A stretch of 64,000 nucleotides of DNA from Rothia halotolerans (GTDB lineage: Bacteria > Actinomycetota > Actinomycetes > Actinomycetales > Micrococcaceae), in the NCBI RefSeq assembly GCF_004136635.1, contig NZ_NOIU01000002.1, positions 124,001 through 188,000 on the forward strand, written 5' to 3'. This document shows, one piece after another, positions 45,823 through 49,080 of this stretch (positions within the stretch are counted from its first letter, which is position 1; the number at the start of each line of letters is the position of its first letter). Under the pieces are notes generated by a model. That model did no database searches. It saw only the letters and a program-made list of their open reading frames with translations, and was not told the origin of the DNA. The position numbers and the translations under genes were made by a program.

Positions 45823-47250
45823 ATGCGATTCCCCTCAGCTCCCCGGGACCGGCCCTCGGTCCTGAGCACCCCCGCCGGCTCCGCCGAGGACGTCCTCGCC
45901 TATATGGTCCACACGCTCGGCTACTGGCCGGACGGCTCCCTGGTGGTCGCCTCGGCCGCCGGGGGTTGCCTCGGCCCGTGCCTCCGCCTGGACCTCCCGG
46001 ACGGCGCACGCTCGCCGGGCGCCTGGGCGGCCGAGCTGCCGGGCGTGCTGGGCAGCCTCGCCGCGTGGGCCCCCGGCGAGCGCGTCACCGCCTTCTTCGC
46101 GGCCTTCGCGGGAGATCCCGGCCTCCTGACCGGAACCGTGGCCGGCACGGTCCGGTTGAGCGAGGGGGACCGGTGCGAGGCCGCTCGGGCGGAGGAGGGA
46201 CCGCCTCCCGCGGGCAGCCCTCCGACGCCGTCGCCCTCGGTCCCGGACGGCCGGGCTCTGCTCGGTCTCGTCTGCGCCGCCCGGGCGGCTCTCCACGCCG
46301 GGCTCGAGCCCGCCGACCTCTGGCTCGTGGACCGGGAGAGGGGCCGGTGGGGCTGGCTGCGGGTCCCGGACCCGCGGGAGGGGGGCGGGCCGGTCCGGCC
46401 CGGCGGCACGATCGACGCGATCCTCGCCAGCCCCGTGGGGGCCGCGATGACCGCGGAGGGGAACGCCCTGCGGGAGCGCTCGACGGCGGTTCGGGACGAC
46501 CCCCGGCTGGGCGGTCCCTTCCGGGCCGCCGAGCTGCTGGGCGCGGCGGAGGCGGCGCGCCTGATCTCCGCCATCCGCACTGGGATGGAGCCCACGCCCG
46601 GTGGCCGGGCTCGTCCGGGGGTCGCCGCGCGAGCGGCCGGGCCCTCCCGGGACCCGGCGGGCGGACTTCCGGCGGAGGGCGGACTTCCGGCGGATGACCG
46701 GGGCCTCCTCCGCTTCACCGAGGCGGTGCGCCATCTGGAGGCGGTGCTGAGGGCTTTCGGGGAGGAGGGGGACCATCGGGGGCGGCCCGGTCGCTCGCCC
46801 GCCCAGCTCCTCGAGGCCGCGAGCCTGGCCCGGGCGGCCCCGCTCCTGGGGGACGACGTCGGCCTCGGGGCGGCGCTCCTGTGCGCCGTCGGGGGACCGG
46901 CCCTCGCCGAGCGTCACCTCGTGGCCGTCCTGGGGCGGGGGAGCGCGCCGGCCGAGGAGCCGGGGGAGCGCGTGCTGCGCGGGCTGGGGGAGGAGCCTCC
47001 GGCCGACTTCCGGTGGGCGGGCCTGAGGCTGGTGCTGACGCTGCTGGGCGAGGCGATGGGGGAGCCCGCCGCCTCGCTCGCGGCGGTGGGGAACGCGCAC
47101 GTCAGCTGGTTCCTCGGGCTCAGCAGCCAGGCCCAGCTGTACCTGCGTCTGGTCCGGGATCGACGGGCCGCGTCCGCCCTGGCCGTCCTGCGGGCGCGGA
47201 TGGCCCAGCGGCCGCTGCCGCGATGGCTCTCCCAGCGGGGGCGGCCGTGA
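45823..47250 (+). CDS. DUF4192 protein
   Basis: A 475-residue soluble protein whose N-terminus matches the DUF4192 pattern (S-T-P-A-G-S-A-E-D-V-L-A-Y-M-V-H-T-L-G-Y-W-P-D-G-S-L shortened here to key positions 11-35). The middle is Gly/Pro/Arg-rich and probably disordered (about 245-300). The C-terminal helical part (about 300-460) resembles the DUF4192 C-terminal region. No catalytic motif or membrane segment is visible. Its location between PAC2 and the principal sigma factor is conserved in related genera. Function unknown. A poor -10-like CAAGGT ends 6 nt before ATG 45823. Confidence 0.8.
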   Translation: MRFPSAPRDRPSVLSTPAGSAEDVLAYMVHTLGYWPDGSLVVASAAGGCLGPCLRLDLPDGARSPGAWAAELPGVLGSLAAWAPGERVTAFFAAFAGDPGLLTGTVAGTVRLSEGDRCEAARAEEGPPPAGSPPTPSPSVPDGRALLGLVCAARAALHAGLEPADLWLVDRERGRWGWLRVPDPREGGGPVRPGGTIDAILASPVGAAMTAEGNALRERSTAVRDDPRLGGPFRAAELLGAAEAARLISAIRTGMEPTPGGRARPGVAARAAGPSRDPAGGLPAEGGLPADDRGLLRFTEAVRHLEAVLRAFGEEGDHRGRPGRSPAQLLEAASLARAAPLLGDDVGLGAALLCAVGGPALAERHLVAVLGRGSAPAEEPGERVLRGLGEEPPADFRWAGLRLVLTLLGEAMGEPAASLAAVGNAHVSWFLGLSSQAQLYLRLVRDRRAASALAVLRARMAQRPLPRWLSQRGRP

Positions 47251-47674
47251 GCGCCGCGCCCGCGCCCTCCGACCGGAATACGGCGCGGGGCTCCCGCCGG
47301 GCTCCGGGCCTCGACGCGGCCCACGGCCCCGCTCCGGGCGGAGGCGGTACCGACCCGGGCCGGCGCGACCCTGAGCCGGTCCGACGGGGCCCGGCCCGAC
47401 CCGGCCCGGAGCGGTCTGACGAGGCGGGGATCCGTGGCAGAATGTGCGGTGGCGCACTCTCGCCCGCCGCCCCATCGCCTGCAGATCCCCGCCTCACGCA
47501 CCTCCCCAGACATTTTTCCGAGGACGGGAATAAGCGATTTCGGCCGGGTGTTGACAATGTCGAACGGCCTTGCAAGCGCGGCCGGGCGATCGTCCTGCGA
47601 TCGGCTCCGGGCTTGACAGGGTCATAGGTGTTTTACGCACCTTGCGCAGTCTCACATGAACGAAAGGTTTTTGA
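47251..47674 (+). other. Long upstream region of the principal sigma factor gene
   Basis: 424 bp without a credible gene. The first 180 bp are extremely GC-rich. From about 47500 the sequence becomes AT-richer and holds a SigR-type promoter (47526-47553), two perfect TTGACA hexamers (47551-47556 and 47613-47618) without a good TANNNT at 16-18 nt, and the Shine-Dalgarno GAAAGG (47662-47667). CAGAAT at 47438-47443 is a further weak -10 candidate. Several promoters are likely, as is usual for the housekeeping sigma gene. Confidence 0.6.
47526..47553 (+). promoter_or_regulatory. SigR/SigH-type stress promoter upstream of the sigma factor gene
   Basis: GGGAAT (47526-47531), 18 nt, then GTTG (47550-47553): an exact match to the consensus of the thiol/heat-stress ECF sigma factors SigR (Streptomyces) and SigH (mycobacteria). 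The predicted transcript has a leader of about 115 nt. Confidence 0.6.
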
Positions 47675-48991
47675 GTGTCACCAGTTGCACGCAAGAAGGC
47701 GGAAGCCGAGGAGGCAGTGACCACCGAGGGCACCGCCCCCGTGACGTCGCGCGCCCGCAAGGGGTCCGCCTCGTCGAAGTCCGCTCCCGCACGCGCCGCG
47801 GGCACGGCCAAGAAGACGGCGGCGACCCGCAAGGCCAAGGCCGGTGACGCCGCGAGCGGAAAGCCCCAGGGCGGCGCTCGCAAGGACTCGGCCGACGAGG
47901 TCGAGGAGATCATCGAGGCGGAGGGCGGCGCCCCCGAGGAGCCCGAGACCGAGGTCGAGGAGGTCCAGGAGGACGAGGAGAAGGAGGCGAAGAGGACCGT
48001 CGCCGCGAGGGGCAACGGCTTCGTCATCTCCACCACCGACGACGACGACGAGCCCGCTCAGCGCGTCAGCACCTCCGGCGCCACCGCCGACCCGGTCAAG
48101 GACTACCTCAAGCAGATCGGCAAGGTCTCCCTCCTCAACGCGGAGCAGGAGGTGGACCTGGCGATGCGCATCGAGGCCGGCCTGTACGCGGAGCACAAGC
48201 TCAAGGACCAGAAGGACTCCCTCGACGCCGCCGCGCGCAAGGAGCTGCGCTGGGTCATCCACGACGGCAAGCGGGCCAAGAACCACCTGCTGGAGGCGAA
48301 CCTCCGCCTGGTGGTCTCCCTGGCCAAGCGGTACACCGGACGCGGGATGCTCTTCCTGGACCTGATCCAGGAGGGGAACCTCGGCCTGATCCGCGCCGTG
48401 GAGAAGTTCGACTACTCCAAGGGCTTCAAGTTCTCCACCTACGCGACCTGGTGGATCCGGCAGGCGATCACGCGCGCCATGGCCGACCAGGCGCGCACCA
48501 TCCGCATCCCGGTGCACATGGTGGAGGTCATCAACAAGCTCGCGCGCGTCCAGCGCCAGATGCTCCAGGACCTGGGCCGCGAACCCACCCCCGAGGAGCT
48601 CGCCAAGGAGCTCGACATGACCCCCGAGAAGGTCGTGGAGGTGCAGAAGTACGGCCGCGAGCCCATCTCGCTGCACACTCCGCTCGGCGAGGACGGGGAC
48701 TCGGAGTTCGGCGACCTCATCGAGGACTCCGAGGCGGTGGTCCCGGCGGACGCGGTGTCCTTCACCCTCCTCCAGGAGCAGCTGCACTCGGTGCTGGACA
48801 CGCTCTCCGAGCGGGAGGCCGGCGTCGTCGCCATGCGCTTCGGCATGACCGACGGGCAGCCGAAGACCCTGGACGAGATCGGCAAGGTCTACGGGGTCAC
48901 CCGCGAGCGCATCCGCCAGATAGAGTCCAAGACGATGTCCAAGCTGCGGCATCCCTCGCGTTCGCAGGTGCTGCGGGACTACCTCGACTGA
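47675..48991 (+). CDS. sigA: Principal RNA polymerase sigma factor (SigA/HrdB type)
   Basis: Housekeeping sigma-70 factor. The 438-residue protein has a non-conserved N-terminus: a Lys/Ala-rich basic part (1-70) followed by a strongly acidic part (71-108). Conserved regions follow: 1.2 from about 129 (D-P-V-K-D-Y-L), 2 with [10 protein letters not shown] (211-220) and the -10-recognition segment [13 protein letters not shown] (253-265), 3 from about 281, and 4.2 helix-turn-helix [12 protein letters not shown] (408-419). GTG 47675 with GAAAGG upstream is the only reasonable start. The stress promoter in its leader suggests induction during thiol or heat stress. Confidence 0.95.
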
Positions 48992-49045: not shown

Positions 49046-49080
49046 GAAGGCCCCGGCCCCCTTGAGGGGCCGGGGCCTTC
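49046..49080. terminator. Terminator between convergent sigA and the DUF7455 gene
   Basis: Perfect 15-bp stem (49046-49060 with 49066-49080), 5-nt loop. Placed to serve both strands. Confidence 0.9.

Follow-up and report, generated by a model that had tools for sequence, protein, structure and literature searches.

A very probable SigR-type promoter and a conserved, putatively folded leader upstream of the principal sigma factor gene sigA in Micrococcaceae

Introduction

Is the housekeeping sigma factor gene fed by a thiol-stress sigma factor outside Streptomyces, and what would a transcript made from such a promoter carry ahead of the coding frame? The question is raised by a 64-kb stretch of the 3.04 Mb genome of Rothia halotolerans (hereafter the window, G000:C4:124001-188000, with positions counted from its first base), in which a motif of SigR type precedes sigA, the gene of the principal sigma factor. 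There is a report that hrdB of Streptomyces has a SigR-dependent promoter, P2 (PMC9205884), and a SigR promoter on a principal sigma gene is thus of an already known kind. The gene-specific, putatively folded sigA leader described below is the new part of the result, the promoter part being known.

A preliminary description of the locus had identified the motif as an exact SigR/SigH-type promoter, which would raise the housekeeping sigma factor during disulfide stress, and had suggested searching the genome for a sigR-rsrA type pair and for further GGAAT-N18-GTT sites, those of trx genes included. The role that it proposed appears to be supported by the cited passages on Streptomyces hrdB, with which it agrees. 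It had overlooked the conserved leader element adjoining the SigR site and a possible distal promoter.

Results

The SigR-type motif upstream of sigA

The element GGGAATAAGCGATTTCGGCCGGGTGTTG lies at 47526-47553 on the plus strand (Table 1). The spacing between GGGAAT and GTTG is exactly 18 nt, as had been claimed, and 121 nt separate the last base of GTTG from the sigA GTG at 47675, where about 120 nt had been given. The SigR promoter consensus is reported as GGAAT-N18-19-GTT (PMC9205884), and the SigR/SigH-type match seen earlier in the 47526-47553 site is borne out by this consensus. Within the 64-kb window GGGAAT-N17-19-GTTG occurs a single time (0.12 expected), and at least one occurrence was found in 12 of 100 shuffled windows, so that a chance match is possible as judged from the window alone. 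Chance is opposed most strongly by the conservation of the motif across the sigA leaders of the family; on the sequence evidence, 47526-47553 is very probably a SigR-type promoter.

Table 1. Position and basis of the features at the sigA locus (window coordinates).
Feature	Position	Strand	Basis
Candidate distal SigA-type promoter P1 (weak), CTGACG-N16-CAGAAT	47416..47443	+	Read from sequence
SigR-type promoter P2 (very probable)	GGGAAT 47526-47531, 18 nt, GTTG 47550-47553	+	Motif and family conservation
Hairpin 1, 5' arm GGCCTTGCAAGC, 12 nt after GTT	47566..47577	+	Predicted fold
Hairpin 1, 3' arm GCTTGACAGGGTC	47611..47623	+	Predicted fold
Invariant block TTGACAGGGTCATAG	47613..47627	+	124/149 family genomes; 30/30 fetched copies before sigA
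Hairpin 2	47626..47642	+	Predicted fold of the window leader
Ribosome-binding site GAAAGG	47662..47667	+	Read from sequence
sigA, principal sigma factor gene, GTG start	47675..48991	+	

The SigR system and its sites in the genome

The genome holds the pair that had been looked for. A SigR homologue is encoded from C4:955462 onward on the minus strand (TIGR02947 SigH_actino, 355.1 bits; cut-off 251.55), and RsrA is encoded by the gene next to sigR (TIGR03988, 82.1 bits; cut-off 62.5). The RsrA protein contains HLEGCETC, which we take to be the H-x3-C-x2-C motif of such anti-sigma factors. TIGR02947 scored above its cut-off in all 35 genomes of the genus.

The pattern GGAAT-N18-GTT was found at 27 sites genome-wide as against 0 for the reversed-pattern control, and its subset GGGAAT-N18-GTT at 13 as against 0. 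Eighteen of the 27 sites are unflagged, with a same-strand frame within 330 nt downstream (one of them, L211, appears to precede a spurious frame); the other nine were flagged as lying within a called frame, as being antisense to one, or as having no gene called downstream. As the preliminary description had anticipated for trx genes, one site (C3:1017269-1017294, minus strand) precedes trxB (TIGR01292; C3:1016159-1017064, minus strand). The gene of mycothione reductase (NF005884, 624.9 bits; cut-off 501) has the motif upstream, the site being among the nine flagged. Likewise, rbpA (PF13397, 135.6 bits), the product of which works with the principal sigma factor, has a site (L207, G000:C4:469250-469275, minus strand) 72 nt ahead of its called start. 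Other genes behind such sites include the serine acetyltransferase gene cysE (TIGR01172, 226.6 bits), mnmA (NF001138, 367.2 bits), an A-type iron-sulfur carrier gene (TIGR00049, 117.6 bits), and the genes of a ClgR-like regulator (124.2 bits, below the cut-off of 170) and a SufR-like regulator (84.5 bits, below the cut-off of 178.8). The motif is also found inside the over-long called frame of sigR, and it therefore probably sits in the true sigR leader.

Conservation of the SigR site

Conservation was assessed in 81 distinct family sigA leaders that carry the downstream block, drawn from 137 loci; distinct leaders are non-identical ones, and many of the 81 are closely related. The strict form GGGAA[TC]-N18-GTT is kept in 66 of the 81 within 170 nt upstream of the block (mononucleotide-shuffle rate 0.0013), and a looser GGAA[TC]-N17-19-GTT is found in 13 of the remaining 15. 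Neither form occurs in the 170 nt before the block in the last two leaders, L017 and L024, the genomes of which (G001 and G007) do have SigR.

Among loci that belong neither to the family nor to Streptomyces, a still looser GGAA[TC]-N17-20-G[TC]T (within about 1100 nt upstream) was present in 17 of 27, a count without a shuffle control and with a pattern so loose that it would occur by chance in some of these loci; 12 further loci had been dropped for having no sigA match. L078, which is titled Streptomyces sp. NP160, was counted in this non-family group and lacks the loose pattern. The family-wide presence of the site, together with the rbpA site in this genome, suggests that the housekeeping sigma gene is fed by a thiol-stress sigma factor beyond Streptomyces.

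A candidate distal promoter and the neighbourhood

A weak candidate for a distal SigA-type promoter, P1, can be read upstream of the SigR site. Its CAGAAT hexamer (47438-47443) and the surroundings are identical in the nearest relative (L010), and the sigma-70 scan did not flag the candidate at 47416..47443. Across the family, 63 of the 81 leaders show a -10-like hexamer followed by GACCC ahead of the SigR site, the median distance being 64 nt (50-122); the pattern was devised after inspection of the leaders (shuffle rate 0.009), and the leader of the window is among the 18 of 81 without it.

Relatives such as L043 and L044 show a GTGAGACAATG-like -10 upstream of the SigR site, followed by GACCCGGTTGGGTC, which is an inverted repeat immediately after the presumed start of P1; Rothia-type leaders have TTGACCCCG there. 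The gene neighbourhood includes a 475-aa frame upstream of sigA (45823-47250), for which no Pfam match was found, and a strong GC-rich inverted repeat right after sigA (49047-49079), probably the sigA terminator.

An invariant block in the sigA leader

Between the SigR site and the ribosome-binding site lies a block of 15 bases, TTGACAGGGTCATAG, which is more strictly conserved among the family leaders than the SigR site. Of 149 family genomes, 124 contain the exact 15-mer, each a single time, and all 30 of the 30 copies fetched are upstream of sigA. It is unchanged in 29 of the 32 genera tallied. Leaders were examined for nine of the 25 genomes that do not have the exact 15-mer (L018, L028, L033, L038, L153, L163, L164, L178, and L097 of G043), and all nine carry a variant beginning TTGACAGGGTC. 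The next-best match to the longer block pattern in the own genome has two mismatches. The block varies less than pairing alone would demand, which favours its recognition by a factor. It contains TTGACA, the -35 consensus. It can also be read as a short frame, TTG ACA GGG TCA TAG, for which no ribosome-binding site was seen by eye.

Related sequences are observed in other groups. In Brevibacterium (L059, L064, and L072) a block TTGAC[AT]TGGGTC stands before sigA, and a GACCC[TA]GTC site abuts the SigR -10. In the Cellulomonas-like loci L062 and L065, GACAGGGTCA or GACAGGTCAT is found directly behind the SigR -10, in opposite orientation to the Micrococcaceae 5' arm.

Predicted folding of the leader

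Close to the expected start, some 8-12 nt past the SigR -10, family leaders carry a stretch that often reads GACCCTK and can pair with the block. Folding was predicted for 79 distinct leaders with motif, block, and ribosome-binding site (from 89 of the 150 loci examined, three Brevibacterium loci included). Hairpin 1, in which the two pair, was present in 58 of the 79 predicted folds as against 175 of 1580 controls with the first 25 nt shuffled; it was better than shuffles (p<0.05) in 46 of the 79 leaders with a mean z of -2.0, and no better in 33. A hairpin directly after the block was predicted in 70 of 79. For the 3' part of hairpin 2 the mean z was -1.24; only 25 of the 79 leaders were better than shuffles and 54 were not, and this part was no better than shuffles in the clade and leader of the window (L009, p 0.505). 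The window leader as a whole has a predicted fold of -49.3 kcal/mol (z -3.32), which 1 of 200 shuffles equalled. The three Brevibacterium loci have the hairpin 1 5' arm directly against the SigR -10 (offset 0), so that a P2 transcript would hold only part of the arm.

The pairing of hairpin 2 was counted in 28 Arthrobacter-type leaders chosen by eye from 46 aligned. Standard pairs fill 91.1% of 293 cells (11 pairs), against 32-70% when the arms are slid; two-sided changes occur in 3 cells, a number reached in 0 of 500 shuffles, and the covariation score was reached in 2 of 500. Alignment A2 was weak in two of five measures, namely pair types (77 of 500 shuffles) and pairs with a two-sided change (20 of 500). 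The arms were also exchanged between representatives thinned at 75% identity, with 2000 permutations and hence a floor p of 0.0005. Own arms paired better than permuted ones both in hairpin 1 (-18.25 vs -16.31 kcal/mol, 49 representatives, p 0.0005) and in hairpin 2 (-9.95 vs -8.35 kcal/mol, 37 representatives, p 0.0005); subsets of the latter gave p 0.003 (Arthrobacter-type, n=10) and p 0.013 (TAGG-type, n=16). The own-minus-swapped difference was -2.03 for hairpin 1 and -1.65 for hairpin 2, as against -0.20 (sd 0.24) and -0.13 (sd 0.30) with shuffled arms (60 shuffles each). Hence, by tests that are not tree-aware, the co-variation of the pairing arms in sigA leaders exceeds what composition would give.

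A model of the element (R1), built from the 28 Arthrobacter-type leaders and run against 70 sources, matched all 21 window and family sources (E <=0.0034) and none of the 49 non-family sources, the three Brevibacterium leaders with TTGAC[AT]TGGGTC included. Rfam 15 gave no meaningful match: the window had three hits at E 0.43-2.9, all well short of their gathering scores, and 20 relatives together had one (E 0.49). The hairpin 2 of L167 presumably resembles a T-box by motif; this likeness was set aside, no Rfam match being found in L167 or 19 further loci. Among the papers listed by the literature searches, none was seen on a sigA leader RNA or a start-site map in Micrococcaceae.

Two modes of leader control were considered and rejected. 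The ribosome-binding site is mostly unpaired in the predicted folds (mean 0.63 over the 79 leaders, with only nine of them under 0.5), and pairing of the 5' arm with the ribosome-binding region is no stronger than in shuffles (mean z -0.15). An anti-Shine-Dalgarno switch was dropped on these grounds; a block on translation start is unlikely, since the site is open and unpaired with the 5' arm. No intrinsic terminator was found in the leader, with 0.1 expected and thus low power.

Discussion

Alternative explanations

A working SigR-dependent sigA P2 that feeds a gene-specific, folded leader RNA is the best explanation overall, with a probability of about 0.7. The main rival to the leader-RNA reading is a DNA operator: a DNA-binding regulator would have its operators (TGAC-N3-GTCA-like) in the block and in the GACCC-type sites close to where P1 and P2 presumably start, and the pairing of the arms would reflect repeated inverted sites, not RNA. 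Palindrome-like sequences are indeed found in the block (TTGACAGGGTCAT), at P2 in Brevibacterium L059 (TTGACCCTGTCAT), and upstream in L024 (TTGACCCCGTCAA); sites of this kind near the starts and at the block would suit a repressor, and the invariance of the block suits recognition by a protein. The hexamer-GACCC sites upstream of P2 in 63 of the 81 leaders, a post-hoc pattern with a control rate of 0.009, point the same way. However, none of the 124 genomes with the block has a second copy of it, and TGACAGGGTCA with at most one mismatch occurs at 14 sites in the own genome vs 9 for the reversed control, which makes a regulator of many genes unlikely; the many-gene operator was rejected on this evidence, with which a one-gene regulator is still compatible. 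Moreover, changes in the 5' arm mostly keep the pairing by way of G-U (GGCCTT, GGCTCT, GACTCT, etc.), and the arms fit their own species better than swapped arms. Operators acting on DNA are, on balance, an unlikely explanation.

The block might instead be a promoter, with TTGACA serving as a SigA -35 or the whole as a dedicated ECF promoter like that of ShbA at hrdB P1. The hexamer equals the -35 consensus, the element is retained and is peculiar to sigA, and ShbA of S. coelicolor is described as initiating from only two promoters in vitro (PMC9205884). Yet a scan found no -10 at 16-18 nt after TTGACA (0.0 expected, hence of low power), none conserved was seen by eye in alignment A1, Rothia-type and Arthrobacter-type leaders differ by 2 nt in the spacing between TTGACA and the shared GTGTT that follows, and hairpin 2 overlaps the would-be -10 position. 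The genome has six Sigma70_r2 matches, that of SigA among them. A promoter in the block is very improbable. It is improbable, too, that the SigR site is real and bound and that the SigA level under stress is unaffected by it, with P1 dominating. Many leaders have a candidate P1 ahead of the SigR site, and conservation shows retention of a site and says nothing of its strength, but SigR is required in Streptomyces to maintain the level and activity of HrdB in thiol-oxidative stress, according to a review (PMC5742136). Finally, a chance match, or a SigA -35 formed by GTTGACA at 47550-47556, is hardly credible: GTTGACAAT does contain TTGACA, and the shuffled windows mentioned above do hold such motifs, but GGGAAY-N18-GTT is kept family-wide, GTTGACA was seen by eye, among the leaders listed, in that of the window only, and the scan found no -10 at the proper distance.

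Proposed mechanism

In the preferred reading, that of a SigR-dependent P2 with a folded leader, RsrA would be inactivated by disulfide or heat stress, and the freed SigR would transcribe sigA together with rbpA, trxB, the mycothione reductase gene, and sigR itself. Such transcription would maintain or restore the housekeeping sigma factor, with P2 acting perhaps beside the more distal, SigA-type P1. We infer a P2 start near 47560-47563. The first nucleotides of the transcript would then form the 5' arm of a hairpin closing on the invariant, sigA-specific block; hairpin 2 would follow, and the ribosome-binding site would be left open. As a guess, the terminal hairpin shields the 5' end of the transcript made under stress, or a factor binds the leader.

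A further proposal is made tentatively and as possible rather than probable: the Micrococcaceae sigA leader may represent a novel type of cis-acting RNA that belongs to the principal sigma gene alone. In it the 5' end of the SigR-made transcript would close a hairpin on an invariant block that contains TTGACA and has no -10, and a dedicated factor, perhaps SigA itself or the SigA holoenzyme, may recognise this block as a feedback on sigma supply. If real, the leader would offer a handle on the tuning of principal sigma supply after transcription start.

Comparison with known systems

The sigA leader resembles other structured bacterial 5' leaders in that hairpins ahead of a single gene are conserved and co-vary, and it is unlike them in lacking a meaningful Rfam 15 match and in leaving the ribosome-binding site mostly open. 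The SigH regulon of Corynebacterium glutamicum is alike in that a system of SigH-RshA type controls other sigma genes; it differs in that the sigma genes named as SigH targets in the pertinent part of the source are sigB and sigM, not sigA (PMC3489674).

The nearest comparison concerns hrdB. The block and hairpin are absent, by model R1, from the Streptomyces/Kitasatospora loci L087, L089, L096, L102, and L107 and from 44 other non-family sources. The SigR -10 is GCT, not GTT, in all 20 of the 20 Streptomyces/Kitasatospora loci, in the form GGAAT[AG]-N18-GCT (once N19). The hrdB P1 of Streptomyces is reported to depend on ShbA (PMC9205884), whereas P1 of the window is a candidate only and SigA-like in look. 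A further conserved block, TGTGAC...CGTAAC, is observed upstream in the 20 hrdB loci (L087-L117) and may be the ShbA P1. S. coelicolor hrdB likewise encodes the principal sigma factor and has, besides a SigR promoter of GGAAT type, a second promoter, and rbpA, for which the motif was found here, is under SigR, its direct SigR dependence having been confirmed in Streptomyces (PMC9205884).
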